Below are positions 1,938 through 48,700 of a stretch of DNA of 64,000 bases, piece by piece. How positions within the stretch are numbered: the stretch's first letter is position 1; each line of letters begins with the position of its first letter. The notes under the pieces were generated by a model. It ran no database searches. It had not been told where the DNA came from and worked only from the letters and a program-made list of their open reading frames with translations. Origin of the DNA: Phytophthora sp. 'mugwort' (taxonomy: Eukaryota > Oomycota > Peronosporomycetes > Peronosporales > Peronosporaceae); assembly GCA_033558025.1 (NCBI GenBank), contig JAUCEF010000005.1, positions 5,518,001 to 5,582,000 on the forward strand, written 5' to 3'. Position numbers and translations under genes: made by a program.

Positions 1938-3422
1938 ATGGCGCGCACCAAGGCACAAGGCCGCAAGGCAAAGAGCGCGGGCCGCGATGTGTACGCCGAG
2001 GGCAAGAAGGCGGCGGCTGAACGCAAGAAGATCAAAGGCAAGATCAAGGCCAAGGGAAAGGCCAAACATGCCGCCAAAGTCGCCAAGGAGCATAAGAAGC
2101 GCCAGGCTCGAGAGGCTACAGAAGCTCTAGACGACAAACCTCTTGAGGACGACGGCTTCATTGAGTTCATGGCGGATGAAGGCGACCACCGAAATGCCTC
2201 AAACAAGAAGGAACAGTCTCAAAAAGAGACTAACCACGCGCTGCAGCTTGAGTCACGGCCCTGGATGAGACAGCGCACGGGCTACTTCAACACCAACGTC
2301 TACGAGTGTCTGCACGAAGAGATCATGGACTTTGTAAGTTTCATCAGCCCCACTGAGGAGGAGATGAGCAGCAGAATGCAACTTATTGAGGACATGCGAG
2401 ACATTGTCAAGGGTCTATGGCCTGGAGCCACCGTCGAGACCTTTGGCTCACACTACACGCAGATGTTCCTTCCCCAGAGCGACATTGACATGGTGCTCTT
2501 CGGAGTACCGGAGGGCAAGGCACCGCTGTTTAAATTGGCCCAATGTCTAGAGGAGAAGGAGCTCGTGAGCTACCTGGAAGTGATTGACAAAGCTCGAATC
2601 CCCATTGTTAAGATGGTGCATAAGGCGAGTGACATTCACGTGGACGTGTCGTTCAATGTGGCTGGTGGACTGGCTACTGGAGACCTCGTCAAGCACTTTA
2701 TGAGAGTATACCCTTCATTCCGTCCATTGACGCTCGTGCTGAAGTACTTTATGGCGCAAAGAGGGCTCAACGAGACGTACACGGGCGGATTGGGCTCGTT
2801 CCTGCTCCAGATGATGGTGGTTAGCTTTTTGCAGCATCATGGACGTGCTCTGGGTGCAGAACATGATGACCCGAAGTTTAACAACTTAGGACACTTGCTC
2901 ATGGGCTTTTTTACGCTGTACGGACGCGACTTTAACTACACGGAACTCGCCATCTCCGTGCGCAATGGCGGATCGTACTTTTACAAGGTAGACCGTCGCT
3001 GGTACGACGACGGACGACCGTTCCTCATTTCGATGGAAAACCCGAACGAACCGAGCCTCGACATTGGCAAGAACTCGTACGAGATGCGTACAGTCAAGCG
3101 CTCATTTGACTATGCCCGACAAGTGTTGCAGAATGAGATTTGCCGCCATGGTCAGTTTAACGCGCTGCCAGGCAGCATCCTTGGCACGATTATTCAGGCA
3201 GATAGCAACTTGGTGAAACGAGACCCACCCGAGAGTTTTGGGTATGCTATTTTACTCCACGATCCTGCGAAGACTGCCGAGCTCAGGAAACAGTACGAGA
3301 TGCGTCGCGACGAGGAAGCAAGCAAGAAACGGACGAAAGAGGCTACAAAAGCCACCAGAGAGAACGGAACTAATGAGCCACCTTACAAGCGATGGAGAGG
3401 ACGCACAAGTGGAGCATACTGA
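1938..3422 (+). CDS. TRF4: TRF4/PAPD5-type non-canonical poly(A) polymerase
   Basis: Single-exon gene of 494 residues. Residues 1-60 are very rich in Lys/Arg/Ala and look like a nuclear or nucleolar signal. The nucleotidyltransferase core starts near residue 115. The helical-turn motif GSHYTQMFLPQSDIDMV carries the two metal-binding aspartates (D182, D184), and the third is D236 in IHVDVSFN. The PAP-associated domain follows (LGSFLLQMMVVSFLQHH, then SFDYARQVL). Family members are the catalytic subunit of TRAMP-type complexes, which oligoadenylate aberrant nuclear RNAs for exosome decay. All catalytic residues are present, so it should be active. The C-terminus is basic (KRTKEATKATREN). Confidence 0.9.
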   Translation: MARTKAQGRKAKSAGRDVYAEGKKAAAERKKIKGKIKAKGKAKHAAKVAKEHKKRQAREATEALDDKPLEDDGFIEFMADEGDHRNASNKKEQSQKETNHALQLESRPWMRQRTGYFNTNVYECLHEEIMDFVSFISPTEEEMSSRMQLIEDMRDIVKGLWPGATVETFGSHYTQMFLPQSDIDMVLFGVPEGKAPLFKLAQCLEEKELVSYLEVIDKARIPIVKMVHKASDIHVDVSFNVAGGLATGDLVKHFMRVYPSFRPLTLVLKYFMAQRGLNETYTGGLGSFLLQMMVVSFLQHHGRALGAEHDDPKFNNLGHLLMGFFTLYGRDFNYTELAISVRNGGSYFYKVDRRWYDDGRPFLISMENPNEPSLDIGKNSYEMRTVKRSFDYARQVLQNEICRHGQFNALPGSILGTIIQADSNLVKRDPPESFGYAILLHDPAKTAELRKQYEMRRDEEASKKRTKEATKATRENGTNEPPYKRWRGRTSGAY

Positions 3423-3841: not shown

Positions 3842-5161
3842 TTACTTTCTCGATGCCCGTTCGAGTAACTCGAGTGAAGCTGGCCTAAATTTGAGGTACT
3901 TTAGCGCAGACGCTGAGTTCGGCTTCTTCGGCTTCCACTTCGAGGCATTCAACTTCCTGTAGCTGCGCTGCTCCTCCGGGGTCATGGATTCCATCTTAAC
4001 GAATTCCTGCTTGCACGCTTCACTGCACGATCCAAGCATGTTTGTAGCGCACTTTGAACACTGCAGAATGAGTCCATGACACATCAAGTTGCTGCAGTTG
4101 GTGTGATGATTGCACGGCTCGCCGCATTGAGAGCACTGACCCAACACATCATCGGTCACCACCTCGGACTCCGTTAATTTGCCCACACAACGCTGATCGA
4201 ACACGAAGTTCTTGCCCTTGAAGAGAGACGACACCTCGTCAACATCACCTCTCACAGCGCCAGCACGTGCCTCTGCTGCCTGGCGCTGATCCTTCAGGAA
4301 ACGCATGTAGTTCACGATGCCACCATGCAGCTTCTGCACGTTCGAGATGCCCTTGTACTGCGTCAGATACGCGCCCACCTTCTCACATCGGATGCCTCCG
4401 GTGCAGTACATCATGACCTCCTTGGGTTTCTGTCCATCGTGTTCCTTCTCGTGCTTCTCGAGAATCTCATCCAACGCGTCGAACGTATCTCGGAACGTGT
4501 CGACCATGATCCTCGTCGCTCCATCAAAGCGTCCGATTTCATGCTCGTAGAAGTTGCGTACATCCAGTACGAGCGTGTCCGAATCATCTGTCTCATTCCT
4601 CGTCTGGAGCTTCTGATGCCATTGCTCGGGCAGCAGCGATTTACCAGACTCCTCCAGATTCAGTGGTCCTGTCTGGAATCCGTCATGAAGAATCTGGTCG
4701 CGAATACGAATGTCTAGCTTACTGAACGGCTCTACGGGCTTGAGCTCCTCTTTACTCTGCGGTTTGTCCTCGATCAACTGGCCATAGAAAAGTTTCGCAT
4801 CCCTCAGCAGTCTTGGGAACGAGCGCTCAAAGGCGTCCACCGCCGGCTCCGGCACCACCAGCTGACCGTTGATGCCTTCCTCTGCAATGTAAATACGTCC
4901 ATCCACGCCCAAGTTCCCCCATTGTTCACGCATATCCCGCCGAAGCTTGGGCAGCTTCTTCTTGTCCAGCGGAATGTAGTTGTACAGACTGATGTATTGG
5001 CGACGAGATATCCCGGTGTCTTCGCCAGTACCGAACGGCCTGCGCTGCCATAACGTGTAACCCTGTGCGAGAGCGACAGGAACACGTTGGCGCGACAACT
5101 CCAGCAGCGACGAGCGCTGGAAACGCGGCGCGAGCCGCACCGCACTATGCAGACCGCGCAT
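3842..5161 (-). CDS. TrhO-type tRNA uridine hydroxylase (UPF0176/rhodanese), stand-alone paralogue
   Basis: Single exon, 439 residues. The first 45 residues are Arg-rich with no acidic run, like a mitochondrial presequence. The TrhO N-terminal domain follows (YNYIPLDK, then IYIAEEGINGQLVVP). A rhodanese domain (about 190-280) carries the active-site loop CTGGIRCEK with Cys253. A Cys-rich C-terminus (about 320-380) has CSQCGEPCNHHTNC and further CxxC pairs, probably binding zinc. Bacterial TrhO hydroxylates U34 of tRNAs to 5-hydroxyuridine. It is divergently transcribed from a fused paralogue at 5282-7213. The rhodanese and zinc segments (4088-4653) are almost identical in DNA to that gene, whereas the N-terminal domain is only roughly half identical. 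Confidence 0.82.
   Translation of the reverse strand: MRGLHSAVRLAPRFQRSSLLELSRQRVPVALAQGYTLWQRRPFGTGEDTGISRRQYISLYNYIPLDKKKLPKLRRDMREQWGNLGVDGRIYIAEEGINGQLVVPEPAVDAFERSFPRLLRDAKLFYGQLIEDKPQSKEELKPVEPFSKLDIRIRDQILHDGFQTGPLNLEESGKSLLPEQWHQKLQTRNETDDSDTLVLDVRNFYEHEIGRFDGATRIMVDTFRDTFDALDEILEKHEKEHDGQKPKEVMMYCTGGIRCEKVGAYLTQYKGISNVQKLHGGIVNYMRFLKDQRQAAEARAGAVRGDVDEVSSLFKGKNFVFDQRCVGKLTESEVVTDDVLGQCSQCGEPCNHHTNCSNLMCHGLILQCSKCATNMLGSCSEACKQEFVKMESMTPEEQRSYRKLNASKWKPKKPNSASALKYLKFRPASLELLERASRK
4088..4653 (-). repeat. Inverted repeat arm A (shared TrhO rhodanese/zinc segment)
   Basis: This 566-bp arm is the reverse complement of 5706-6271. I count about four mismatches, all within the first ~130 bp in coding direction; the remaining ~430 bp look identical. 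It codes for the rhodanese domain and the start of the zinc region. Similarity falls sharply at both edges. Confidence 0.85.
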
Positions 5162-5281
5162 ATTCCGCCACCAATGAATTTCTTGAATGGTAACGGCTTT
5201 TTCATTTGGGTTTTGTATGGAACGATACCATCATTTCGACAAATTTGGTATATCTCCATTTGCCGAAGTGAACGTGCGGTT
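5162..5281. promoter_or_regulatory. Very short bidirectional promoter between the two TrhO paralogues
   Basis: Only 120 bp separate the two ATGs (5161 on minus, 5282 on plus). Any core promoter and 5' untranslated regions must be compressed here or overlap the neighbouring coding region. The plus frame stays open leftward to 5087, but the methionine at 5282 begins a presequence-like stretch and is the better start. Confidence 0.5.
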
Positions 5282-7213
5282 ATGCTGCTTCGCCGTCTCC
5301 GGTCCCTGCGTTGGCCTGTTCGGCGGGTATCGACCCATTCAAGTAGAGATGTACGTGCTAAGTGTCGTCAGCATGTGAGCCTGTATAACTATGTGCCGCT
5401 GGAAGAGAGTGAGCTGCCAAGGCTGCGTCGGCGTCTGCTCGGTGGCTGGAAGGCTCTGGGCGTGTGTGGCAGGATCTACTTGTCCCCAGAAGGGATCAAT
5501 GGGCAATTGGTGTTGCCTCAAAGCAATGCGACGGTGCTGTCGACGTCATTTCCGCGTATTTTCACGAGCGACAGCATGTTCTACGGACAATTGCTGCCTT
5601 CAATGGAGGAGAGTGGAGCGGATGATCAACCGTTCTCCAAGTTGACGGTGAGAATCAGGAAGCAGTTGGTGCATGATGGTTTCAATAAAGGAGAGCTGAA
5701 TATGCAGGAGTCTGGTAAATCGCTGCAGCCCGAGCAATGGCATCAGAAGCTCCAGACGAGGAATGAGACAGATGATTCGGACACGCTCGTATTGGATGTA
5801 CGCAACTTCTACGAACACGAAATCGGACGCTTTGATGGAGCGACGAGGATCATGGTCGACACGTTCCGAGATACGTTCGACGCGTTGGATGAGATTCTCG
5901 AGAAGCACGAGAAGGAACACGATGGACAGAAACCCAAGGAGGTCATGATGTACTGCACCGGAGGCATCCGATGTGAGAAGGTGGGCGCGTATCTGACGCA
6001 GTACAAGGGCATCTCGAACGTGCAGAAGCTGCATGGTGGCATCGTGAACTACATGCGTTTCCTGAAGGATCAGCGCCAGGCAGCAGAGGCACGTGCTGGC
6101 GCTGTGAGAGGTGATGTTGACGAGGTGTCGTCTCTCTTCAAGGGCAAGAACTTCGTGTTCGATCAGCGTTGTGTGGGCAAATTAACGGAGTCCGAGGTGG
6201 TGACCGATGATGTGTTGGGTCAGTGCTCTCAATGCGGCGAGCCGTGCAATCATCACACCAACTGCAGCAACGTCATGTGCGGAGGTTTGATCTTACAATG
6301 CCAGAAGTGTGCGACCAGCCTAATGGGCGCTTGTAGTGAAGCATGCAAGCAAGAATTTGTCAAGATGGAGGCGATGTCAATGGAGAAACAAAGAGAATAT
6401 CGCAAACTACAGGCAACGCAGTGGATGCCGCCGATCCCAAATGCGCTGTCGCAGTACGTTCGTAAGCGATTAAGAGCATCATTAGCAAGCACAAGTCTGC
6501 ACACTCGGCAGTTTACAGTTTCACGAACTCGCAACAAAAGCATCGACGATTCGGAGCTTCAGAACAACTACGTCTACTCACAAAGCAGTCGTCTGGACGA
6601 TGATGAATTGCTGCGAAGTCTACGTGAGGAGACGGCACGGACGTGGCCGAAGGCGGAGCAGCTCATCGACGAGATGCAGGGAAAATTTCTTTCATTCCTT
6701 GTGCAAACCACTCGCGCCCAGCGCGTGCTGGAGATCGGCTGCTTTACCGGTTACTCGGCCTTATGTCTCGCTAACGGCTTGGCCTCAGACGGATCGCTCG
6801 TGACGTGCGACATCGACGCCGACACGATGCAGTTCGCGCAGACTTTCTTCGACAAGAGCTCGCACGCGAGTCAAATCACTGCCGTGAACCAAGCCGGACT
6901 GGACTATCTGACGTCTCTTCCAGACCACCAGCCGTTCGACTTCATCTTCGTGGACGCAAACAAGCGCAAGTATCGCGCGTATTATGACTTCATTCTTGAG
7001 CATAACGTGCTGCATCCGTCGGGGCTTCTCGTATTTGACAACACTCTGTTCCGCGGTCGGGTGGCCGCGTATGCCAGCGGACTAGCAACCAACAGGGAGC
7101 GGATCGCACGCGGCCTGTCAGACTTCAATAGCTACGTAGCGCAAGACACACGGACCTTGCAGGTGGTTATGCCGCTGTGGGACGGACTCACGCTCATCCG
7201 GTCAGTGCAGTAA
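5282..7213 (+). CDS. TrhO-TrmR fusion: tRNA U34 hydroxylase joined to SAM O-methyltransferase
   Basis: Single exon, 643 residues from the chosen ATG. Residues 1-30 are Arg-rich and presequence-like. The TrhO domain spans about 31-375, with IYLSPEGINGQLVLP, the rhodanese loop CTGGIRCEK (Cys225) and zinc-type CxxC pairs. After a linker (about 385-430), residues about 436-643 form a class I methyltransferase of the caffeoyl-CoA/catechol OMT family. It shows SAM motif I (VLEIGCFTGYSA, 482-493), the metal/catalytic motif VDANKRKY (D558) and LLVFDN (D586). In Bacillus, TrmR (YrrM), a member of this same OMT family, methylates the ho5U made by TrhO to mo5U34. The fusion therefore predicts one protein catalysing both steps, probably in mitochondria. 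The frame is continuous, with no stop or intron between the parts. Confidence 0.85.
   Translation: MLLRRLRSLRWPVRRVSTHSSRDVRAKCRQHVSLYNYVPLEESELPRLRRRLLGGWKALGVCGRIYLSPEGINGQLVLPQSNATVLSTSFPRIFTSDSMFYGQLLPSMEESGADDQPFSKLTVRIRKQLVHDGFNKGELNMQESGKSLQPEQWHQKLQTRNETDDSDTLVLDVRNFYEHEIGRFDGATRIMVDTFRDTFDALDEILEKHEKEHDGQKPKEVMMYCTGGIRCEKVGAYLTQYKGISNVQKLHGGIVNYMRFLKDQRQAAEARAGAVRGDVDEVSSLFKGKNFVFDQRCVGKLTESEVVTDDVLGQCSQCGEPCNHHTNCSNVMCGGLILQCQKCATSLMGACSEACKQEFVKMEAMSMEKQREYRKLQATQWMPPIPNALSQYVRKRLRASLASTSLHTRQFTVSRTRNKSIDDSELQNNYVYSQSSRLDDDELLRSLREETARTWPKAEQLIDEMQGKFLSFLVQTTRAQRVLEIGCFTGYSALCLANGLASDGSLVTCDIDADTMQFAQTFFDKSSHASQITAVNQAGLDYLTSLPDHQPFDFIFVDANKRKYRAYYDFILEHNVLHPSGLLVFDNTLFRGRVAAYASGLATNRERIARGLSDFNSYVAQDTRTLQVVMPLWDGLTLIRSVQ
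5706..6271 (+). repeat. Inverted repeat arm B (shared TrhO rhodanese/zinc segment)
   Basis: Partner of the arm at 4088-4653, in opposite orientation. The arms are 1,052 bp apart and equal in length, so there are no indels. Read 5' to 3', similarity starts at a shared AGGAGTCTGGTAAATCGC and ends at CCAACTGCAGCAAC. Confidence 0.85.
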
Positions 7214-8761: not shown

Positions 8762-10691
8762 ATGCCTCGCCCGCCCAGCCCGCTCTGGAAGCACTTCAGC
8801 AAAGTGATGCCCAACAAGCGCGCCTCCTGCAATTACTGCGGCCTCAACATGTGCGGCCTCGTCGTCCGCATGCGCATGCACCTGGCGCGCAAGTGCGCGA
8901 GCTGCCCGGAGCACGTCAAGGCCGAGATGTGCGCAACTGCCAGCCGCAAGCAGGAAGGTGCCGTTTGACTGGGTTTCACTATGAAGTTAGAGTGATGGTC
9001 ACTAAGTTGATGTTTGTGATTATTGCCTCACAGTCCCAGTAGCCAAGAAGCCGCGCACCATGAAGGAGCAAGCACAACTGCCAGATGAACATCCGGCCCA
9101 GGCTCAATCCCCAGACCGGACTCCATCGTCGACTCTGAAGCCGGCGCAAACTACAGTACATGAAGAAGTGCCGCCGGATTCGCCGCCACCGTCCGCGCCG
9201 GCGACGACTGTGGCCGTGCTGGATGACAAGAGCGACCTGGACGGCTATGTGGCTCGAGCCGTCTTTGGCATCGGGCTTCCGGTGGCCACGGTGGAGCACA
9301 CGGCCTTCGTCAAGATGCTGAAGCGTATGAACCCGGCATACGACCCGCCCAGTGCGTTTGCACTGGCAACGTCCGTGCTGGATCTCGAATACTCGGAAGT
9401 GCAGCTTAAGCTACGAGCGGAAGTGCTCGATTCGACGGCAGTGAGTCTCGGAGTGGAGTCGTGGGCGGCGTCGCAAAAGCACTTGCTGGTGAGCTGTGTG
9501 ATCAACAAACCCACTCCAGCTGTGTTTGGTTTTGACAGCACTGGGGACATGCCGCAAACGCCGGAAGTGCTTGTTGATAAGATTGAGAACACGATGACGC
9601 AGATCGGAACCGGCAGGGTGTCGGTCATCGTGACGGATACAAGTGAGAGCATGAAGCAGGCTTCACTGACGCTCCAGAACAAGTACCCTGGCATCACGTT
9701 CCTGCCAAGCTGCGCGCATATTATGAACACGATGGTAAAGGAGATGCTGGATGTGCCAGCCATTGCCAGTACACTGGACGCTTGCAAACAGCTTGCCAGT
9801 TTCTTCTTGAAGGATATCGTCGCTCGCAGCGCCATTGCGCGTGTTTCAGAACAGATGCAGTCCATCGAGGTGACTGCACCGATGGGGGACCCAGACGATT
9901 CAAGCCCAAACGGACTGCTCGAATGCTTGTTTTCTGTCGAACGCAACCGCCACTCGCTAGACATCTTGCTCACTGAAAACGGCACGCTGAACAATCTAAC
10001 TGCGCGGGTTAAGGAGCAGATTACCAGTCTTGCTTTTTGGGAAGAGATGGAGGTGTTTACTGGGCTCTTTAGGCCTTTCCTCGAGATTTTGAAGATGTTC
10101 GAGACAGATTCCCCGTTGTTGTCAACATTTTACCATCGATTTACGTTGCTGTGGGCGCATCTCGACAAGTATGGGAGTCTCGCATCCAAGTTCCAGCATA
10201 TTATTTCAAGCTACTGGCAGAGTATTCAGCACCCCGCCATGTACACGGCCTATCTTCTGGATCCACGGTTCCCGCCAGCGAGCCTTTCTGGGGAGGCTAC
10301 AAGCGAGGCCCTGGCATATATAAAACGAAGTTCAAGCGCGCAGGCCTACGGTACCATTGTGGACGAATTGACTCGCTTCACAGCGCGGACAGGTCTGTTT
10401 GCTGACGATGCTATCTGGGAGTCCGCGCAGAAGTGCAGTCCGATTCACTGGTGGAAGGGCTTTATCGGCAGTTCGTGTCCGAACCTGCAACCAGTGGCTT
10501 TGCGGACGCTGAGCTTTCCTGCATCCTCGGGACTTTCCAGGAGCAAGCGGGCGATGTTCGAGAAGATTCAAATCATGAACGCCAAGTGCATGAGCGAAGA
10601 GCAGGCGCGTAAAGCTGCTGTGGTGTACCTAAACTTAAATCTGACATCGAGCGTGGAGGACGGTGTGGCCAGCATCGAGACACACGTGTAA
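8762..10691 (+). CDS. BED-finger hAT transposase-derived protein, probably domesticated
   Basis: Two exons, 8762-8957 and 9034-10691, giving 617 residues. The junction creates VPVAKKPRT, a nuclear-signal-like run. Residues about 6-55 form a BED zinc finger (CNYC then HLARKC). The hAT region contains a typical VIVTDTSESM block (second catalytic Asp position), then PSCAHIMNTMVKEM, and ends with an hATC dimerisation segment (HWWKGFIG, then LSFPASSG and AVVYLNLN). Where active hAT enzymes have the S..ERxFS/ERNWS glutamate, this protein reads SRSKRAMF, so the catalytic Glu appears lost. No terminal inverted repeats or target duplication were found. The reading frame is intact and spliced, which points to a retained DNA-binding protein rather than a decaying transposon (inference). 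Confidence 0.75.
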
Positions 10692-30900: not shown

Positions 30901-33900
30901 GAGAACCTGGAACCAAATCGATCATACTCGGTACTGGTCAAAGTAGAGAATTCCCTGTTGTCGTCATCTGCGTGGGCTGAAGTGACGTACAAGACAACCT
31001 CTGGTGTCCCACCAACCCCTGTAGCCACATTACTGCAAGTAAACACCTACAGCGCAGTTGTAGAACTTGCGACAAAGCCTTACGACAAGGAAACAAGTTC
31101 TTACCGCGTATTTCTTCGACAAGATGGTACCGAGATCCAGAATCACGAAGTATCCTGTGAAAAGGACGCCATCTTTGACCAATACGTGTGCCCGACATCA
31201 TATAAATTGGAGACCTTGGAGGCTGCGACTGAGTACGAAATTAACGTTCAGGCCAATGGGCCACTTGGATCAAGCAAACCGAGCGCTTCTTCGTTCAACA
31301 CTAGCGGCATCTCAGTTGGTATGCTTTCTTGTGCAGGACTCATGCGTTGATATCAACGTTCTCACACTGCTGTCAAATTATATTCAGGTACATTCGGGAT
31401 GGCGAATACCGACTACAACGCAGATAAAGACGGAATTATTAACACAGTGGTGCTTCGAAGCGGCGGGACTTCCGGACCTGTCACGGTGGGCGTGAATGTG
31501 ACCCAATCAGACACGGTTTTCCTCCGATGCAAGAGTGTGGCTAGTGGAGGTTGTGATTGCACTTTGTACCTGACTTCTCCAGATGCTGTACAGCAAATGT
31601 GCTTTCTGAATTTTGTTGATGGACAGACAAGTGCGCGTGTAACATTCTCGATGTGGAACGATGAGTCAGCGGAACTTCTTCCATCTCGAGTTGTTGTGGC
31701 CCCATTTGGAGTAGATCTATCTGGCCAGCATGCGGCTCTCTTACATACGGATGCTCGACAAGAAGTAGGTTTTGCGTCATTTGCTTTGGCCCCTTCTGAT
31801 GTTTATGAAGACGCCACGTTTGCGATGGTGAACGTATTGCGTCTCAATGGAACAACAGGAGTACTTAGCTTCAGCTTTGAATCATTTGACATTACCGCGG
31901 TTGCAGGGGAGGATTACGTTGCTTTGAACGGTACTGGAGTGCTTGAAAATCAAGAGAGTACCGCACAGATTTGGATTCAAGTGATCGACAATCAAGTTGT
32001 CAACAGCGCTAAAACGTTTGGTCTTCGGTTGATTGACCAACCCATGTTAACCGACGGTGACCATCTCGTGACACACAAAGTGATTATACATGATGACGAG
32101 AGTATCTCAACCGCGGTTCCCAGAAAACTTGACGGCATTTCTACTGTCTACACAACTGGAGGAGAGTTCCAGGTGGTATGGCCTAGCGCAGTTCTGGACG
32201 GTGTAGCTACTTCTGGATACTTAGTTCGTGTGTCGCCTGTCAGTACTGCGGCGTTTTCTAGCGTCTACAACACGACAAATGCTCATTTTACGCTGTCAGG
32301 GCTTTCTGCTCGAAGCGTTTATCGTGTCGAAGTTGCAGCTTGGAATGCTTTTGGCGTGGGCGAATACTCCAACACTCTTGAAGTAGCGACAAAGGAGGTT
32401 ACCGCTCCAAGTGCACCGCTTTCATTAAGCACTGCAGACGTAACAAACACGAAATTCTCGCTGACGTGGGAAATCCCTCAGGATGATGGTGGAAGTCCGA
32501 TTGACGGTTATCATCTCACTGTCGCAGACCTGGTCGGAAATGTGTTAAAATCGGAATTAATCATTGACTCAAGTTTGGTTTTTGTAGTAGACGGTCTAAG
32601 TGCTTCCAGCGACTACGTCTGCCACGTCTCCAGTCGAACCGGTGCCTTCCCAGACGCGATGGATCCAATATCTACTGCGACTATAAGCGTTACAACCGCA
32701 GCTGGAGTTGCCCCTGGTATATCTCCAACTGCCGTCCTGATAGCGCAGCCCCGCGGAGGAACTCTGATACTCGCAATGACTCGACCAAATGACACGGGAG
32801 GATTGTTTTTATCACGATGTGTGCTTTATTTCCGCAAGGCTGCTGATACCGAGTCAACAACTACTGATGAAGCATTCGTGGTTGCTTGTAGTATTGAACT
32901 GTTTGATCGTACGACTCCATTGTGTACCATCGGTAATCTGTTGGCTAGCACAAGCTATGAATTTTATACAGTATTCTCCAACGCAAAGGTACGTTTCGTA
33001 TGTGATTAATATTTTTCATAGCATTTGACTTAACACCTACTTCTAGGGGAATAGCCCGCCTGGAGAACGCGCTGTTTTCATGACAAATGGTGCTATCGAC
33101 TTGCCATGGCAACCTCTTAACTTACGCGCTCCTAGTATTACAGCAGGAAACATCAAGCTCGAATGGGATGAACCTGCTGACTTGGGAGGAGCTTCGAGCG
33201 TGGTCGGATATATTGTTTATCAAAAGTATAACATTTGGAATGATGGGTACTTCACTCTTTACGATGGCCAAGATTCCAAGGAACGGAGCTTTACAGCTAG
33301 GGGGCTGATCAGAAATGCAGCATACGCTTTCGCTGTTGTTGCATTTAACGACGCCAGCTTTTGTGTGGATCCTGACCTGCATAACATCAGCTCGTTCTTG
33401 GAAGTATCAACCCTCGTCTTCAGCCCCCTGGCGCCCCCGGGCCAGCCGTATATCATTTCTGCTACGGGAGGTGCGATTTCAATCGGGTGGAGTGTTCCTG
33501 ATGACCTTGCCGGAGTGGGGCTGCATGAATACTACGTTGAATTGGTAACAGCTAGTGGGTTTGAAGTATTGAGCAGTGTTCCGTCTTATGCCACAACGTT
33601 CACGCAGTATGGACTTTCCGAAAGCACAAGTTACAGTTACGCAGTTACTGCTACGAACCAAGATGCACCCAGCGAGAGAAGCGGGATTCTTACAGCAACC
33701 ACCACTGTCGTTTCGAGACCAACCTGGTTACAAAACTTCCGTTCCGTGGAACCAAGTACTGGTGGTAGTATCACTTTAATGTGGGACGCACCTCAGGACA
33801 CCGGTGGACGACAAATCGAGCATTATGAAATTACTCGAGGGGGGCGTTTTAACAGCTACTTAACTACTAGCACCACGTTTGAAGATCGTTCAGGTTTGAG

Positions 33901-36900
33901 CGCATTAACTGGGTACGTGTACACGATCACAGCGTTCAACGGACTGTACAGTGGCTACCCAAGCTCAATTTATGCTGCAACAGGCTTGCCTGTCATTTCA
34001 GACCCACCAGTATTTGACAGCGTTATCCCATTTGGGGGGCGGCTGGAAGTTTCGTGGGCGGTGCCTGAATTCACAGGTGGTATTCCAATTCTTAACTACG
34101 TCATTACACTGCTCAGTGCCGATCAGTTGACCACAATCGAGACTTTGACTACCAACGCGTCATCCTACACGTTTTGGAATCTCATAGCTAGAACGGATTA
34201 TCAATTATCCGGAAAAGCTCTGAATACGGAAGGTGAAAGTTTGCTTGTGAAGTATAATATTACGACAAGCCTTCCTGATGCTCCTGGTGCCCCACCGAGC
34301 CCTGAAGCAAGTAATATTCTTGGTGGAAGCGTCGACATCCACGTAGCAAAGCCAACATATACCGGTGGGGAGGATGTCATACTGATTCTACACAAGGGTG
34401 GCACCATCGTGTATACTTTTGCTGAGAACGAGTGGGATGTGACGATTTACGGATTGGTTGCAGAGACGACTTACATGTTTAGTGTTTCTGCCAAGAATAC
34501 GGCTGGAGAAACGACCAGTACTGCATTAGCGATTATTACAAGTGCGATCTCTACACCAGGGTTGGTTCAGAACCTTCGTGAGGTATCCGTCACGTTCAGT
34601 CAAATGACACTTACTTGGGATCCAGTTAAGGATACCGGTGGGGACGCCCATATTCAGTATAACGTGACTTACTTCAAGTGTACCAGCGATGGAGTACAAG
34701 ATGGAACAACTGAGCTGGTGACGAGGACGGATTCGAATACGGTTCTGATTGAAGATTTACAGTATTCGTCCTTCTACAATGTAAGGGTGGTGGCAATTAC
34801 GAGCACATCACTTGTCGGGAGTTCTAGTTCGTCACTAGTGATAGCTACTAAACAACCCCTTGGAGGAATAGTGGTCGCAGCATTCTTAGAAATCACAGTG
34901 AAAGAAGATGCAGGGGTCGTATCTGTACCGATTGAACGAGTGAATGGATCGTACGGTAATGTCTCGTATTCGTTCGACATTATTGATGAATCGGCGTTGA
35001 ATGGGGTAAACTACCTTCGAGCGACTGGAACGAGGACATTGACAACAAACGTTGTATCTGATTTCGTCGATGTTACGGTCGTCAGTGACACCGCGTACAA
35101 CCCTGGCATTACATTTCAAGTCGTCATCACAGATACAAACACAGCGCTGCAAAGTACTACTCATATTCACTTAGAAGATGACGGTGATGCTGGATTTATT
35201 TCATTTGCCGATCCGGTGCTTATGATTCTGGAGAATAGCGGGACTGCTTACCTCACGATTACCCGAACAGGGGGAACTAGCCCACGAGCAGTTATCCAGA
35301 TGTTTGTGATCAGTAACGCGAGTGCGATAGATCGATTCCTGTTGCTGGATTCAAGCGTCGTATTCGAAGAGGGAACAACACAGCAAATCGTCCCGGTTAC
35401 CATGACGGATGATTTTGAATTCCAATTTATCGCCGATAGTATCACGATTGGATTTAATATTCTCGAAGGTGGTGTGTCATATGGGACGTACTCTTCGGCA
35501 ACAGTGACTGCACTTGACGACGGAGATATCTCGATCCCTAAGCAATGCTTGAATCTTCAGAAGACGTCTGTTACTGGGGGAGCTATGGGCCTCCAGTGGA
35601 CGCCCCCGGAAGATCATGGAGGTGCGAATGTCACGCTGAGTTACTTGGTGAGCGTGGCGGTGGGAACTGACATACCCATCACGGAGGAATCCCCAACGGA
35701 AGCGATAACCGTGTACGGATTGAGCCAATCAACGACCTATCGAGTGTCCGTGCAGGCTGTGAACTCTGCTGGAGCTGGAGTAGCGAGCACGTATTTGCTG
35801 ATTGCCACACTATCTGCAACAGCGCCAACTGCTCCACGTCTACTTCAAGTTGTAAGTGCATCAAGTTCTAGCGTACTCATCCAATGGGACCCCCCGCTGG
35901 ACGATGGTGGATCTCCCATTGTCGCGTACACGCTCTACAAGGTGTCTGGAACGATCACGATTATGCGATCGCTCTTTGCGTCAGTATCGTGTTCTGCTCC
36001 GACGGTTTGCGCTATCAAGCAGTTACTAGCTCTAACATCGTACAACATCCAAATCCAAGCATCGTCAGCATTTGTGACGCAGGGTGAGTTCTCCGAGGTG
36101 ATAACGCTCAATACGTCGAGTCCGGACTACCCGGACATGCCACCAATAGCTGCTGTTACGTGGGTTAGCGCAGGAGCCATGACGATTGAAATGTTCGACC
36201 CAGTGAATGTCGGTGGATCCAATATCCAGGAGTACAGACTTTTCATGCGGGCTGATGACGAAGTTGACTTTGTCTCCGTTTACAGTGGTGCATCCCGTGA
36301 ATACACCGTGTATCGACTGCGGTACAAAACAACGTATCACTTCAAGTATCTTGCGGTAAACTCAGTTGGTCCAAGTGTAAACTACAGCCAAGTCCAAACC
36401 AACAAAACACTGTCAATGTCGTTACCGAACGCACCGACAAACGTGGAAGTGACGGATAAAACGGGTGGAGCTATAACATTGACATGGAATGAGCCACTCG
36501 ATGTTGGTGGTCGGGAAGTTACGGGTTACGCGGTTAAGATTGTCACGATAGGTGAAAACTCAGCAGATGTCATGGGATATGACGGAAAAATGATACCCAC
36601 CCGAGAAGGAACTGTTTACGGGCTCAACGCTAGTACAAACTACAGCATGAAGGTTGTTGCATACTTGGAGGTGTCGAACTGCTTCGACGCGGTGTTGCAA
36701 GCTTGGAGCTCAGTTATTCAGGTTACCACAACGAGTGCAACATCTCCACGAACGGCGCCAGAGCTTCTTGTTGGGCGCTTCACAGGAGGAATCGTTGAGT
36801 TGGTTTGGATTGCACCAAAAGATATGGGCGGTGATCCGCTCACAGGATATACACTCTATCTTCTTGATAATACTGGAGCCTCGAGTGTGCTTTTCTCGAC

Positions 36901-39900
36901 CACCAATGCCAGTATACTCTCCTTCGTGCACAACGATCTAACGGCGAGTATGAAATACGCGTACACAATCAAAACATCGAATATTGCTGGTGATAGCCCT
37001 GTTAGTTTGCCTCTTGTGGCCACGACGGACGTAATAACGTTTCCGTCGGCACCTCTGAATGTGCGGCAATTGACGTACAACACTGGAGGCGCAATCACGA
37101 TTGGATGGGATCGCTCAATTGACACAGGAGGGCAGCCCATAGCTGGGTACATGGTATATCGGAACGGAGAGCTCGTGAGCGGAACTTTACCTGCCGATAC
37201 GAGGGACTTTATTAATAAAGATCTTCTGGCAGCGAGCACAAGCTACAACTACACTGTGCGATCTATCGCCCAGAATTTGATGATCTCGATGGCCAGCGAA
37301 GAATGTCCTGCGAAAACAACGGCAGCCACGAGGCCACAGAAGGCGCAGTCCTTAACTGCTGCCCTAGGCTCTAGTTTTCTGAACGTCTCGTGGATTCCTG
37401 ATAGAGACTCCGGTGGACTGTCGATATCATACTACGACGTGAAGTTGATGCTTGGCTCCACGCTCGTGGAAAATGTCAATTTGAAGAGTGCTTTGTTCTA
37501 TCTCTTTACAGGGCTTACCGCCAGTACCAACTACACTAGCTACGTCAGAGTTAATAATGACGTCGGTGCAAGTGAAGAGGTTAGTGTCACTTTGACAACT
37601 ACTTCTATGTCGACGCCAAACAGCCCGAGTAAGCCACTGGTTGTTGCTGTTTACGGCGGCAATTTTACGATTCAATTGGACCCACCGCGGTTTACAGGAG
37701 GATCCCGGGTCACAGACATGAACGTCTACGGATATATTGACGGCGTTGCGAAATTGAAAGTGACATTGAAGGTGGTTTCTGGGACTGCAACACGTTACAC
37801 CGTTTTCGGCACGAATGCATCGTCAAAATACCCAGTTGCTTGCTCGGCAGTCAATTCGGCTGGCGAAGGGCCCCTAAGCGAGATCGTCATGATTGAAACA
37901 ACGCCACCAAATCAGCCTGGACCAATTTTGGCGGCTCCTGTTTTTGTTGGCGCTACTGGCACAACACTTTCCTTTTCATGGAACCCTCCAGCTGATACAG
38001 GCGGAAGCCTAGATTTATCGTACGACGTTAGACTTGCTAACACGATTACAGACGGGATCAACCCGACCGTAAATCTGACATACACAGCGACTCAACTCGC
38101 CTACAACAGCGCCTATAATTTTTCGGTTCGTGCGGTAAACACGAATGGATACGGCACGTGGAGTCCAATTCGCACTGGAATGACACAGCCCGACGCTGCA
38201 GGGGAATTCAATTTTGATCAGACCAGCGTATCTGTTCTTGAAAATGCGACCCAGGTAGCTCTCGTGGTGCAGCGAACTTCTGGACTTAGTGGTCGGATTA
38301 CGGTTACTTATTCAACAGAGTCGACAGGAGCACGGCCAGCTACCATAGGATTGGACTATGCCGTCGCAAAAGATTCCAGCATTGCGACAGGAACGATTGG
38401 ATTTGAGCCGCTACAAAGCCAAAGCTATATCGTGATCAGCATTATTGATGACTGGGACTACGAGTTCCCCAATGAGACGTTTGCGGTCCGGATAACTGGC
38501 GTGGCATCATCTCTCCCCGAAGGCAGACCCAAAATCGGGAGCAGCGATGTAGCTACAGTATCCATCGTGGATGACGGAGACGCTGGATTCGTCAGCTTTG
38601 AGAAGACGACTTATTCCTTTCTCGAAGATGCACGAACCGGGTCTGTCACAATTATTCGGGAATACGGCAAAAGCACAAGCATCACTCTTGCCTTTGAGTT
38701 TTGGGGCGGAACTGCCTCGCCAGATATCGATTACCGCAAGACAACTGTTCCAGTTGTCATGGATACCGGTGTTACGAAAGCTAATCTGACGTTTTCCATC
38801 ATTAACGACAAGACATTTGAATTTCCCGATGAATATTTTTTTATTCGGATGACAGTATTGAGCGGCGGGGCTAAGCTTCGACAACCTCTTACACGTGTAA
38901 CAATTCTTGACGATGGGGATGTATCTGACCCTGGACGGTGTCCTTCACCTGAACTATTATCGGTAACGGGAGGATCAGCTACATTCGCGATCGACTTCCC
39001 TGACCATAATGGCAGTACAACTGGAGCAATATCGAACTATGTGGTGCGTCTCAGTACCAACATGAGCTCGATCGATTTTACAAAACCAGTGGCACCGAGT
39101 TTTACTATTGGACACTTGACCGCCTTGACAGCGTACAATGTGTCAATTGCTGCTAATACGTCCGTTGGGCAGGGGACATTTAGCGACGCTACCGAGTTTT
39201 CGACAACGTCTCCGTCGCTTCCTGGTCCTATCACGACAATATCTGTTGAAGCACGAACTGGTGGTCGGATCACTCTCCTGTGGCCTGCTCCTGATGATAC
39301 AGGCGGAGTTTTAATCACCAAGTACCGCGTCTACATCGTTGAGAGCCTCGGTGTTCTGCAGGTAAATTTTCTGGTGTAGCCTTTATACGTGCGAAAGTAA
39401 CGTGGCGTTTCATGCCGTAGCTTGCCTCCGAGAACTTGCAGCCAACCACACGCGCAGATATTAACGGACTGACTGCGAGTTCAGTATACGAATTTTCCGT
39501 TCAGGTAACTAGTCGAGTACTCGATCAAGATCAGGTATGTTCTCTTATTTGTGACTTTTATATTGTTTTGACAGGCTGGGAATTCAGTCAGTGATAAAGA
39601 TGGCTGGGGTGCAATAAGTGCTTCGTTCAAGTTTTCGACTACTGTGGCCACACAACCTGGCCCTCTTATCCTTAATCCAGAACCCTATCAAGAAGCGACT
39701 GGAGGGAAAGTTGTTCTCAGTTGGAAAGCCCCACTTGATACAGGTACAAAGCATCAGAAACAAGAGTGCTTGGTGCCATGTATCGATTTCTAACCTGGTT
39801 TTCACATGAACTTAGGGGGTACAACCATTTCTTCCTATGACATTTACGCCAGAAGTATTTCTCGGCCGTGGTTTTTGTCTGCAACAGCGTCATCGAGTTC

Positions 39901-42775: not shown

Positions 42776-45700
42776 GTAAGCAAAGTGGCGATATAACTCT
42801 GTACGGATACTGGATGGGAACTTACCTATAGGTGCTAATGTTGTGCTGTAGTTTTCCTCGTTTGAGCTGGAATGCGATCATGACTATGTAGAAATTCTTG
42901 ATGAACTGACAGAGGAGCGTCTGTGGAAAGGCGGTTGTGTGCGAATGGGACGCTTTGTATACCAAGCAAAGTCGTCAATCGTTATTGCGTTCACAAGTGA
43001 TGCTAGCGTCACGGCGAAGGGGTTTGAAGTGAAGTACGAGACAGACGGAACGACAGACAACTCGGAGATTCCTCCACCAGGAGACGGAGTGGCATGCTCA
43101 GGCCATGGGCGCAGTCAAAGTGATGGAAGCTGCTCATGCAGCGTCGGATTTACTGGCGAAGGTTGCAATAATCGCATTGTTTGTTGCTCAGATCCCCAGC
43201 GGTGTCACCACTTGGTGTGTGATATGAATCCTGCAAAGGTTATCGTTGTATCGGGAGAATTCGGCGATGACACGCAGGGAACAGGCCAAATGATGAATGC
43301 GAGTGAGAAGGGAACTGCTTCAAAAGCTGTTAAGACGCTCGCTCGAGCTGTGGAGTTGAGCTCGGAAGGAGACGCCATTCTGGTATATCCTGGAACATAT
43401 TCTGGCTCGCTCAATCGCAACCTGAAAGTAGACTCGACCGATCTAACGATTAGTACCTTGAAAGGGCCCTTTTGGACGGTTATTGATTGCGATAAAGAGT
43501 CTCGGTTTCTTCTTACGACGTCTTCTACTATGACAGTGGAAGGGCTCACAATACAAAACTGTATGGAGGCAGATGGAGGAGTATTTAAAATTGTCGATGG
43601 GGAGTTTAGCGGCACGAATATACTGATTATTGGTGCCAGCGCCACTCAGAATGGTGGCGTGCTTTATGCAAGTGGTAGCGATATCGCTTTTTACCAAGTG
43701 GGTATGAGTAAGAGTAGTGCCGGAACTGAAGGAGGAGCCATCTATCTCGAAGACTCGAAAGCCTCTGTGATTGAATCGAATGTGACCATAAGCACTGCTG
43801 CTCGTGGTGGGGCAGTTGCCTTACTAGGAACGAGTTCTCTTTCCACGACGGACACACAGTTCACCGAAAATGTTGCATCAGAGAGTGGCGGGGGAGCCTT
43901 CGTGAGCGGCATCATATCGCTTACAGGTGTTCGTTTATCTACTAACAAGGCAACAAGTGGAGGCGGCCTTGCCATGGATAATGGAACGCTAACTATGGAG
44001 AACTGCGTCATTAGCCATAATACTGCAGATATAGCTGGTGGGGGAGTGGCAGTTGGTGGAAAATCGACTCTGACCAGCAGAGAAACTATCATTCAAAGTA
44101 ATGACGCCGGATCGACAGGTGGTGGTGTTTATCTCTTCGGTACTGTCAGTATTACCTTCGACATGCAAACAGAGTTTCCCTCTACAATCACAGGCAATAC
44201 AGCATGTACGTACTGGTAAACCTTTTTTTCCTGGTAGAAGCAGCTGAGTTTTGTATTTACTGATGAAGATGTGATGACACACAGTGAATGGAGCTGGGGT
44301 GTATATTTACAACGCACAGGCAAATCTTGGAGGGATTGACGTAAACAATGGACGTGCAACCGAGTCTGCCGGCGGCGTTGCCATTGTGGATAGTACCGTC
44401 GAGTGGTCAGATGTGGTCATTCAAGAAAACGAGGCACGGGAAGGCGGTGGTCTTGTATTGAAAAACTCGCATCTCACTTCCATGGGGTTTGTACTTATTA
44501 CAGAGAACGAAGCGATGGATGGAGGTGCGATCTGGATTACTGGGGGTACTATGACCGGGGTGACTGATACGCGTTGCGTCCGTAATACAGCTATCAAGGG
44601 AGGTGGTGGAATTTATGTTTTGGGCGATGCTACCGTGAAAAATGTCTATCACGAATTCAACGAGGCTCCACATGGAGGGTGCATGTATGTGGAGAGTGCA
44701 ACACTTACGTTGGAGAATTCCCTGCTTACCAAATGCACGGCTGACGTGAATGGAGGCGGACTATGGGTGAACGATAGCCAGGTCAATGTGAAGGATGTTT
44801 CCGTGGAACTAAGTGAAGCCCCGGATGGAGGAGGATTGTTTGCTACTGCAAGTTCCGTTTCGGGAAGCATGACGATTGAGGGTTGTAGTGGCGTCAATTA
44901 TGGAGGTGGTATGTATCTACTAGGGAAAACATCCATTGCTGGCGTTCATGTTGACGATTGTGATTCAAAGGATGGAGCTGCAGCGTATGCGGTGGACGCT
45001 GACCTCACGATTGAAAACTGCAAGCTATCGAGCTCATACGCGTCTGACAAGGGAGGTGGCCTCTACATATTAACGTCTACTCTGCAGTTGATAGCTACGA
45101 GCTTGTTAAATGATAATAGTTCCACGTTAGGTGGTGGCGCTTACGTGGAGAAATCGACAATTACTCATGACGGTGCCATAGTCGAGGGATGCAGTTCAAA
45201 TCGTGGCGGTGGCGTGTATTTAACAGACAGCAACATCTTGGCAAAAACCCTATCTTCATCTTCGCACATTTCAAAAAGTCAGGCGCTAAACGCTGGTGGA
45301 AATATGTTCTTAAATGGGCTGTGCTCTGTCGAGCAATTGATTATCTCCTCAGGCACTGCTGAATCTGGCGGGGGAATAGGCATCGATAGCAAATCAGCAA
45401 CAATTAGCAGGTGTTCGATAGTAAACAATTCGGCTACATTTAGCGGGGGAGTTGCTATACAAAGTGGGTCGATGTGCACCATGATAGATTCAGATGTTTC
45501 AGCGAATGTCGCTATGGAAACTGGAGGTGGAATTGGCGTGGCGAACGCTGCTCTTTGGCATAATGGTCTTTCCGTACTATCCAACACAGCTCCACGTGGA
45601 GGAGGTGTATTCACGACGGAGGTGTCAACTATATTAAAGCAAAGCGACAACTCCCCGCAAGCAGTATTTCAAAGCAACAATGCAACAGTCGCGGAACTAT

Positions 45701-48700
45701 CTACAGGGTACGGTGGCGGAATATATATCGCACCAGCTAGCCAAGTGGAAGCCGGTGGACTTTCGTTCCTTGACGGAAAAGCTTATCGGGGGGCTGGGAT
45801 TTACATTGACGAAGCATTATTTGCAATAGCAGACTCTAATTTTCAAAACGGAGACGCGTCGGATGGGGGTGGCATCTACGCTAGTTACCCAAGTAACATT
45901 GAACTGACCAACTGTTCTTTCATCAAGAACATGGCTTCGCAATCGGGTGGTGGCATTGGGATGGGAACTGGCGTAGCACAAGGAGTTAGCAGTATCCTTT
46001 CTATAAGTAATTGCTCCTTAACTGGAAATTCGGCGGGTGTTGGAGGAGGTATGATGCTGTCGATGACGAAAATCGACGGATCGAACACTGTCATGAAGGA
46101 GAATGCCGCTAAATCAGGTGGAGCACTTGCCGTGTTTAGTGAAAGCTCGGTGACGCTCCGCAATTGGGATTTCATTAACAATACTGTGGTGAAAAACGAG
46201 GTGGGAGTGCAAGGTGGAACGCTCTACATTACGAAAGGCATTGTCACGATAACCGATTCACTCCTTGTTAGCAACGAGAAAGCCACGCTGGCGCTAAATG
46301 GTGGTCTTATTTATGTGGAAAACGCCGACACAACTCTATCCATCTTGCATTCCAAATTAGAGTTCGGCCAAGCGTACTCGGGAGGGTTAATCTACTCGTT
46401 AAATGCTGATGTCTTCATCAACAATTCGACGTTGCACCGTGGTTTTGCGTACGACTTTGGGGCTGGAATCTTTGCTGTGAATTCACACTTGGACGTCTCC
46501 AACAGCCGTTTCTTTGATAATTTCGCTTTTTACGACGGTGGAGGAATCTATATGAAAGACGGCGGCCAGCTACGAATTGACGAGTCATTCTTTGATGTCA
46601 ACGCTGTTCAGGACCGTGGTGGGGCTATCTTCTTAAATCCTGGTGCAGCCGTGATATGCACAATCTCCAATTCGAATTTTACCCGCAATATAAATGTTGG
46701 ATTTGGCTCGACGATTTTTGTAGGGAGAAAGAACACGGTGCAACTGTCAAACTGCATCATCTCTCGTAACGGTGATGGCGGCACTGAAGGTGGAGCTTTA
46801 AACGTTGTTGATGCAACAGTGGACATCGAAAGTTCACTGTTCGAGTTCAATACTGCTACGAAAGGTGCAGCGATTCAGATCAGTCGATCCGCTAATGTTG
46901 CGATCAAGCAGACAATTATCCGCAACAATTCAGCTTCAATCCAGGGTGGGGCTTTGCATGCATCAATCAGAGCAGTTGCTACTCTTACCGACTCAGTCAT
47001 CGAAGCAAACGATGCTGGAGAAGGAGGGGCTGTATACGCCCTAGGATCTTCCAGCATTATCCTATCGAATATTAACTTCACGAATAATGCGGCAAACTCC
47101 TTCGGTGGCGCCGTCTCAGTGAGAGGGAGTGCAGTATTGACTATCACAGGAAGCTTGTTCGAAAGGAATAAGGGTTACACTGGCGGTGCGATCTCAATTC
47201 AAGACAATACTTCACTTTCTGCCATGAATAACCAATTCAAGGACAATGCAGCCGTCGACTTTGGAGCTGCCGTTTATATGGACAAGAGTACACAAACGAA
47301 GACTCGAATGGTGAGCTGCCAAGGTTTACAATTCGATAAAAATGCAGCTGCAGCTGGGCATGACATTTACTGGATTTACTACCCGTGGTTTACATTTAAC
47401 TGCATTGACTGCACCACATTTACAGGTATTGATGCGATCTTAATGGCTACAAGTGCTATGACCATCACGCCCGGATGGTGGCCAGACTGTGTCACCAGTG
47501 GTGTGAGTCTAGGAGTTGTGGTACCAGCATCTACCAACTCGAGCTCGTCAATTTCGACTGCTTCAACGCGAAGATTGGCCGTTTCCTTGTCCTCATCTTC
47601 TGATTCGGTCGATACGTCTGCAAGCTTAAATGCGAGTTTGACCAAGCCTGGATCAACTGTGCTTTGGCCAACAGTTGTTATGAGAGATTACTACGGTGCT
47701 ATCGCAACTTACGACAACGTTACGCGGTGTCGAGCTTTCTTGTCAGTTGATGAAGAAGATTCACTCACTTTTTCTCCAGCTACTTGGATCACTGTTGACG
47801 AGGGGTACATATTTTTTAAGGGTGCCGAAGTGCTGTCTAAATCTCGAGACACTCCGTACCGGCTGACTGTTAACTGTACGCTGTCTCCAGTACTTTATTC
47901 TGCCATCACTGTCGGTATCATCGTCGACAAATGCAATCCCGGCTATGAAAACGTCAATGGGTACGGCTTTTGTATTTTTTTGTTTTACTGGAGAGTTGGA
48001 TTTAACAACAAACTGATGTTGTTGTATAGAATGTGTCTCCCTTGCGAAAAAGGGACTTACAGGTACATCATCGTGTTGTTTTATCTGAATATGTAGTTGT
48101 TAATGCGTACACTGACGTTGTGGCTCTTGTTCGGTGTTTACATTTTTCTGTAGTATGGATGGCGAGAAGTGTTACTTGTGTCCTCCAGGAGCAACTTGTG
48201 AGCAAAAAGATCAGAGCGGGACAACAACTGGAGTCATTTCCCCAAGGCGACAGCAGGGATACTTCGTTTCGAAGGCCCGATCGACATATGCGGCCTCAAG
48301 TTGTGACGACCGGGGCTCATGGTCATCTGATGACCCGTGCAAAGCTATTGACGAAACTAATCTCACCGCTCGCGTCCATAAATGCGCTAACAAGTACCCG
48401 GAGACATTCCCCACTTATTGGAGCCGAAGCCGAATCTACTCGTGTCTCTCTGGAAATGAGTTTTATACATGCGATGTAAGTTCTTGTTATAATAGTTATG
48501 TTTAATGTACATAGCACTAACTAACCTTTTTTTTGCTACAGACAAACGCCGCGTGTACCGAGGCTACAGCAGATTCTACAACTTCTTCAACTTCTACGGT
48601 CTCTATCAGCACCGCATCTGTGCAGTCGTCAGATCAATGCGCAGTTGGGTATACTGGTATTATGTGTGCTTCTTGCACTGACAATTACTACAAGGCTTCA

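Follow-up and report, generated by a model that had tools for sequence, protein, structure and literature searches.

The window, a 64,000-nucleotide stretch of the Phytophthora sp. 'mugwort' assembly GCA_033558025.1 (contig JAUCEF010000005.1, positions 5,518,001 to 5,582,000, forward strand), carries a gene in which a putative TrhO-type tRNA hydroxylase is joined to a class I O-methyltransferase. A second TrhO gene, lacking the methyltransferase, lies head to head with it. The features of the locus, in window coordinates, are as follows.

3842..5161, minus strand: unfused TrhO paralogue of 439 residues, the divergent neighbour (open reading frame, Pfam, NCBIfam)
4082..4621, minus strand: gene-conversion tract in the unfused paralogue, pairing with 5738..6277
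5162..5281, no strand: 120-bp gap between the two start codons (ends of the open reading frames)
5282..7213, plus strand: TrhO-methyltransferase fusion gene, 643 residues, a single open frame including the stop codon (Pfam, NCBIfam)
5282..5365, plus strand: basic N-terminal extension, residues 1-28, a probable mitochondrial presequence (composition, model confidence)
5372..5665, plus strand: UPF0176_N, acylphosphatase-like domain, residues 31-128, including R124 and R126 (Pfam, 5.3e-15)
5738..6277, plus strand: fusion-gene copy of the conversion tract, matching the paralogue at 535 of 540 bases, with an unbroken run of 453 bases (5819-6271)
5762..6052, plus strand: Rhodanese domain, residues 161-257 (Pfam, 9.3e-10)
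5954..5971, plus strand: TrhO active-site loop CTGGIR, residues 225-230 (alignment to E. coli C200-R205)
6140..6349, plus strand: Rhodanese_C, residues 287-356 (Pfam, 7e-19)
6431..6547, plus strand: predicted disordered linker, residues 384-422 (structure model, pLDDT <50)
6593..7204, plus strand: Methyltransf_3 class I O-methyltransferase domain, residues 438-641 (Pfam, 4.6e-45)
6725..6760, plus strand: SAM-binding motif VLEIGCFTGYSA, residues 482-493 (alignment)
6953..7042, plus strand: stretch from D558 (VDANK) to D586-N587 (FDN), predicted metal ligands (alignment)

The fusion gene and its unfused neighbour

The fusion frame runs from an ATG at 5282 to a stop codon at 7211-7213 with no internal stops, and it stays open upstream of that ATG as far as a TTG at 5087. 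All four Pfam domains of the protein score above their curated cut-offs, and the NCBIfam TrhO equivalog NF001133 is passed at 179.1 bits (cut-off 170). E. coli TrhO requires C200, T201, G203 and R205, together with the basic residues K112 and R114 (Sakai et al. 2019; PMC6599085, as far as its available text goes). This active-site set is present in the fusion protein, where R124 and R126 align with K112 and R114. The other half has the features of TrmR-type enzymes: a Methyltransf_3 domain, a SAM motif and a D...DN metal site. We take D558 and D586-N587 to be ligands of a divalent metal, a role known from the family. The first-pass annotation had described one uninterrupted reading frame holding a full TrhO and a full O-methyltransferase; the reading frame, Pfam and NCBIfam confirm this, and the motifs that it quoted (CTGGIRCEK, VLEIGCFTGYSA and VDANK) are all found in the translation.

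An AlphaFold model of the protein, built with 30 aligned fusions, has a mean pLDDT of 84, with both domains mostly above 80-90 and values below 50 at residues 7-25 and 384-422. According to this model, the fusion protein is two folded units with a disordered N-terminus and a disordered linker; the position of the latter agrees roughly with the interval of about 6430-6590 proposed in the first-pass annotation. The top Foldseek match for the model was B. subtilis TrhO bound to tRNA-Ala (9j5o); next ranked O-methyltransferases of the cation-dependent type, along with a TrhO homologue from Legionella. The top 50 matches included no TrmR chain, which counts against a role in 5-methoxyuridine (mo5U34) synthesis.

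The 120-bp gap separating the two start codons is probably a shared bidirectional promoter, and the two genes it separates share far more than a common domain. Outside the tract the fused and unfused genes are only about 55-59% identical at the DNA level on both sides, and the tract edges are sharp. We compared the paralogues in eight hand-picked species pairs, taking residues 150-330 as the core. Fused and unfused cores were 96-100% identical within species in all eight pairs, while comparison of this species' core copies with those of the same kind in the seven other species gave 77-87% identity; the flanks of fused and unfused copies were 45-55% (N-terminal) and 49-71% (C-terminal) identical. 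A FastTree phylogeny of the core paired the copies by species in 8/8 cases, whereas the N-terminal part separated Phytophthora fused copies from unfused ones. Judged by these comparisons, the rhodanese core is homogenised by recurrent gene conversion. Recurrence of the tract in other assemblies also makes an error in this assembly less likely.

The inverted head-to-head neighbourhood seems to be old, since among the matches listed the locus tags are also adjacent in P. oligandrum, P. insidiosum, P. oleae, P. sorghi and Bremia. The unfused paralogue may have descended from the fusion gene through loss of the methyltransferase, a descent that we infer only weakly because the converted core biases the TrhO tree.

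Conservation and decay of the fusion

The first-pass annotation was unaware of any account of a eukaryotic fusion of this sort, but one was already in print. In a sentence that labels these eukaryotes as bacteria, Sakai et al. 2019 (PMC6599085, available text) name yceA(trhO)-trmR fusions of P. sojae, P. ramorum and Phaeodactylum tricornutum, which gave them a lead in finding TrhO. From the distribution of TrhO, the same text suggests an xo5U-type modification for eukaryotes. The published fusions have the same domain pair in one Phytophthora open frame as the gene described here; P. sojae P0003 is 78% identical over 96% of the window protein, and P. ramorum P0006 is 74% identical over 100%. 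We found no experimental test of fusion function in the available text of PMC6599085 or among the other papers listed by the literature searches, and none of those papers was seen to report eukaryotic mo5U; the searches covered few subscription papers. What is new here is the head-to-head unfused paralogue with recurrent core conversion and the six losses of the TrhO half in downy mildews.

A homologue search returned 727 proteins at E<=0.001, and the figures that follow refer to the best 120 of these. Methyltransf_3 occurred together with at least one TrhO domain in 55 of the best 120, so the join is conserved and not an assembly accident. Among the matches listed, two-domain homologues were found in the oomycetes Phytophthora, Peronospora, Globisporangium, Pythium, Albugo, Aphanomyces, Achlya and Saprolegnia and, beyond oomycetes, in Porphyridium and Triparma. 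The top protein among those matches was from Phytophthora nicotianae (79% identity). No relative was found in the viral contigs searched.

Catalytic residues are strongly conserved in an alignment (A1) of the window protein and 29 of the 55 two-domain homologues, hand-picked for spread and completeness; two decayed proteins among the 55, P0010 and P0036, were left out of it. The C, T, G, G and R of the TrhO loop are invariant in 30/30 fusions, the equivalent of E. coli K112 is basic in 28/30 and that of R114 in 30/30, and eight cysteines of Rhodanese_C are kept in 30/30. In the methyltransferase half, D558 is kept in 29/29 and D586 with N587 in 27/27 of the A1 fusions that are ungapped there.

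A single origin of the fusion was not borne out. The TrhO tree requires six changes of the 'fused' label, because unfused oomycete paralogues are nested among the fusions, and one fused row, P0061, is unplaced in the tree of O-methyltransferases (OMTs) described below. The TrhO tree includes the converted core, which pulls copies together, and contains long branches (P0062, P0057, P0068, P0059 and P0054); its 20 bacterial rows fall on one side of a branch (93/95).

The N-terminus of the window protein is basic, as the first-pass annotation had noted in pointing to mitochondria: the first 25 residues include eight basic and one acidic. Over the same length, 19 of 22 hand-picked fusions (those of the eight species pairs and 14 others) have three or more basic residues and no more than one acidic residue, the three exceptions being models from P. 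sojae, P. infestans and P. oligandrum that start near the domain. This composition fits a probable mitochondrial presequence. Two mitochondrial stretches that were scanned yielded one tRNA-Arg (tct) and one tRNA-Asp (gtc), too few to list the four-box U34 tRNAs.

In six downy-mildew proteins among the matches listed, the TrhO half is decayed or nearly gone. The segment bearing the rhodanese loop is missing from Peronospora destructor P0010 and P. effusa P0036. Substitutions have degraded the TrhO half of Peronosclerospora sorghi P0049, which gives no Pfam match there at E<=0.001. Hyaloperonospora brassicae P0126, Bremia lactucae P0127 and Plasmopara halstedii P0123 retain the methyltransferase and, at the most, a vestige of the end of TrhO. 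Faulty gene models could account for the clean gaps, but not for the decay by substitution in P. sorghi. Among the matches listed, an intact unfused TrhO with CTGGIR is present in five of the six species with a decayed half (P. effusa, P. sorghi, H. brassicae, B. lactucae and P. halstedii, that is, all but Peronospora destructor). This pattern suggests that selection keeps the methyltransferase even without a covalently joined working TrhO. Since these proteins keep the methyltransferase without a working TrhO half, covalent coupling is probably dispensable and tight coupling not essential. The first-pass proposal that the fusion couples both steps in one enzyme is therefore not needed as such, six downy-mildew proteins having lost the TrhO loop or half and kept the methyltransferase.

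Relatives of the methyltransferase half

The OMT tree comprised 91 rows, cut from 123; 32 of 51 Bacteroidota rows had been dropped beforehand, as had, at a still earlier stage, P0084 (methyltransferase part too short) and L112 (no clean reading frame). TrmR rows (B. subtilis TrmR and 8k1f, along with 2gpy, 3ntv and 4oa5) split from all others with support of 97/99. Caffeoyl-CoA OMT, COMTD1, Synechocystis OMT and SafC formed a separate group (84/100), joined by three Bacteroidota proteins that belong to a high-scoring subtype. Of the fused rows, 28/29 (all but P0061) clustered together with P0185 (81/71), a protein listed as stand-alone that comes from a 1,558-base contig. Further stand-alone proteins from Bacteroidota and cyanobacteria fell in groups neighbouring the fused half, with the branching order among groups unsupported; of the 16 ordinary Bacteroidota rows, 11 lay in one neighbouring group, four in another and one, with 3dul, in the caffeoyl group.

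Joining the 28 fused rows and P0185 with 13 caffeoyl/COMTD1-type rows was rejected by the AU test (p 0.000199), whereas joining them with four TrmR-side rows was not (p 0.188); the rows of both groups were chosen once the tree was known, and catechol OMT itself is absent from the tree. By this rejection (p 0.0002), the sequence evidence indicates that, in its ancestry, the methyltransferase half does not belong with the caffeoyl-type enzymes. The first-pass annotation had named a firm placement with catechol or caffeoyl-CoA enzymes as telling against its reading; for the caffeoyl-CoA/COMTD1 type, no such placement was found. Its statement that the domain is of the same OMT family as TrmR holds at the level of the Pfam family, but in the best tree the fused half does not group with Bacillus TrmR, although the AU test did not reject such a grouping (p 0.188, as above). 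The fused half also scores higher against Synechocystis OMT (120 bits) than against Bacillus TrmR (52 bits), which counts against the mo5U34 reading.

Compared with known enzymes, the fusion shares its domains with the TrhO (YceA) proteins of E. coli and B. subtilis, including CTGGIR in E. coli and basic residues nearby. Bacterial TrhO, however, is without a methyltransferase domain, and E. coli hands ho5U34 to CmoA/CmoB (PMC6599085, available text). B. subtilis TrmR (YrrM) shares its Pfam family, SAM motif, D...DN site and proposed reaction with the fused half, but it is a stand-alone protein of a separate clade. Caffeoyl-CoA OMTs, COMTD1, Synechocystis OMT and SafC have the fold and metal site of the fused half, except that the PDB sequence of human COMTD1 is without the DN pair, yet it is with these that a joint clade was rejected.

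Several stand-alone Methyltransf_3 proteins of Bacteroidota lie in groups adjoining the fused half, and as a set they co-occur with TrhO. Among 148 Bacteroidota genomes drawn evenly from the phylum, with UPF0176_N taken as TrhO and Methyltransf_3 scored at E<=1e-30, 85 had UPF0176_N, 86 had Methyltransf_3 and 74 had both, leaving TrhO alone in 11 and the methyltransferase alone in 12. A strong Methyltransf_3 gene was therefore present in 74/85 genomes with TrhO and 12/63 without it (Fisher p 2e-17, uncorrected for kinship). If six genomes with only the >230-bit subtype are counted as lacking the gene, the methyltransferase occurs alone in six and the kinship-uncorrected p becomes 1e-22. The 86 genes were counted as one set, although those sampled in the tree belong to more than one lineage. 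Similarly, in 24 genomes hand-picked from 80 TrhO loci, 22/22 Bacteroidota genomes had a strong Methyltransf_3 gene (at least 149 bits), and the two non-Bacteroidota genomes had none or a weak one.

In the loci covered, these bacterial genes are unfused and lie away from trhO. A scan of genome contigs gave TrhO loci, of which the best 80 of at least 589 were used, with flanks of at most 10 kb (less where a contig ended). In these, seven methyltransferase queries found no relative near trhO at E<=1e-4 (best E 0.02), while a TrhO control query matched in the same set. No bacterial fusion was found among these 80 loci at that threshold; an apparent one in L059, spanning query residues 29-555, was really a TrhO reading frame followed by an unrelated one.

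Stand-alone methyltransferases of this kind also occur in the fungi Gigaspora rosea and G. margarita (P0140 and P0146), on a long branch of their own; their source may be an endosymbiont or transfer.

Function of the fusion protein

TrmR was reportedly discovered by Ryu et al. in 2018. According to the available text of PMC6599085, TrmR is the enzyme that methylates the ho5U34 oxygen in bacteria, giving mo5U34. Wobble modifications derived from ho5U are described as bacterial in the available part of another paper (PMC10516636), and the portion available of a 2023 review states that no information exists on the function of human TSTD2 (PMC10135228).

On balance, we consider it probable that the fusion is a bifunctional tRNA wobble-modification enzyme, making ho5U34 and then mo5U34, probably in mitochondria and beside a converted unfused TrhO. 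The TrhO half would use O2 to hydroxylate U34 of four-codon-box tRNAs via the CTGGIR loop, as shown for bacterial TrhO. The flexibly tethered methyltransferase half would then methylate the newly made 5-hydroxyl with SAM as donor, yielding mo5U34 as Bacillus TrmR does. The protein is probably imported into mitochondria, and the unfused TrhO encoded 120 bp away could provide an extra supply of ho5U34; the tether probably limits unmethylated ho5U34, yet would not be essential.

By sequence features and by analogy with the bacterial enzymes, mo5U34 synthesis appears to be the best reading of the gene. It is supported by the complete domains, the intact catalytic residues, the fold match to 9j5o, the conserved fusion, the co-occurrence in Bacteroidota, the rejection of a caffeoyl clade, the 19/22 basic N-termini and the fact that the intron-blind search of this assembly gave no other full-length Methyltransf_3 match. 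It is weakened by the placement outside TrmR, the lack of a methyltransferase at the 80 bacterial trhO loci, the mixed lineages of the Bacteroidota genes, the 3/22 non-basic N-termini and the downy-mildew losses. The step from ho5U34 to mo5U34 proposed in the first-pass annotation seems reasonable and is strengthened by co-occurrence and phylogeny.

Some of the same evidence could instead relate to a division of labor between the two genes, with methylation as the true function of the fusion protein, acting in trans on ho5U34 that the unfused neighbour mostly supplies, and a redundant TrhO half kept by gene conversion. The rhodanese cores, 96-100% identical within 8/8 species, would fit such an arrangement, as would the six downy-mildew species in which the TrhO half is loopless or near absent, five of which have an unfused TrhO with the loop. 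However, both halves are catalytically intact in the A1 fusions, including those from lineages far from Phytophthora (the decayed rows lie outside A1), and faulty gene models may account for some of the TrhO halves missing in downy mildews; we regard redundancy of the TrhO half as possible, but on the unlikely side. Alternatively, the fusion may make another ho5U34 derivative, modify a different nucleotide, or act on cytosolic rather than mitochondrial tRNA. Compartment and substrate are both deduced, the methyltransferase half lies outside the TrmR clade and three of 22 models start without a basic N-terminus, but the bacterial methylation of the ho5U34 oxygen described in the available text of PMC6599085 is that of TrmR, giving mo5U34, and we consider another product or compartment decidedly unlikely.

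The family membership of the methyltransferase half points to one further candidate substrate. Other Methyltransf_3 enzymes methylate small catechol-type molecules, and the top-scoring solved structures are cation-dependent catechol/caffeoyl-type enzymes; the half could act on such a molecule, with the fusion incidental. This is very improbable given the rejected joint clade (AU p 0.0002), the conservation of the fusion and the co-occurrence of Bacteroidota relatives with TrhO, and a small-molecule methyltransferase is unsupported by the AU test, catechol OMT lying outside the tree.

On a broader reading, several eukaryotic lineages may have an organellar mo5U34 pathway through an old fusion, with its methyltransferase representing a third lineage of ho5U34 methyltransferases, kin to those found in Bacteroidota that carry TrhO. 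Within Peronosporales and Pythiales the fusion would be accompanied by an inverted, co-regulated unfused TrhO whose core was repeatedly converted, and downy mildews would have gone back to a stand-alone methyltransferase. We offer this broader picture tentatively, as somewhat short of probable. An organellar mo5U34 pathway in eukaryotes is so far unreported in the literature searched. A conserved two-step fusion with intact catalytic sites in oomycetes and the algae named above offers a direct place to test for a eukaryotic ho5U-derived modification, and the paralogue pair and the downy-mildew losses form a natural test of whether fusing consecutive enzymes matters.

The wider genome (86 Mb in 154 contigs) was searched with profiles in six frames, blind to introns. 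Five UPF0176_N loci were found, each with a CTGG loop in or next to the match; three are unfused UPF0176/TrhO-like loci additional to the pair described here (L003 on C14, and L004/L009 and L005/L012 on C7), and, when read in six frames, L004 and L005 are interrupted by stops or introns. The fusion gene gave the only full-length Methyltransf_3 match in this intron-blind search, a second match being a fragment of 46 positions (24 bits). Within the window, a mitochondrial-type poly(A) polymerase-like protein (MTPAP central domain, PAP_assoc) is encoded at 1938-3422 (+), just past the unfused paralogue, and a hAT-type transposase-like reading frame (DUF659 and hAT dimerisation) lies at 9060-10691 (+), about 1.8 kb downstream of the fusion. 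The P. kernoviae protein model P0021 combines DUF659 with the methyltransferase, and is perhaps a gene model run through a neighbour like this hAT frame. Further along, the frames at 44284-48096 (+, 1270 residues) and 56810-58732 (+, 640 residues) have no Pfam matches at E<=0.001, and a frame of 2099 residues at 33080-39379 (+) matches eleven fibronectin III and four Calx-beta stretches. Elsewhere in the assembly, at least 89 COX1 matches are spread across the smaller contigs, C15 to C154, many of which are for this reason probably mitochondrial copies.
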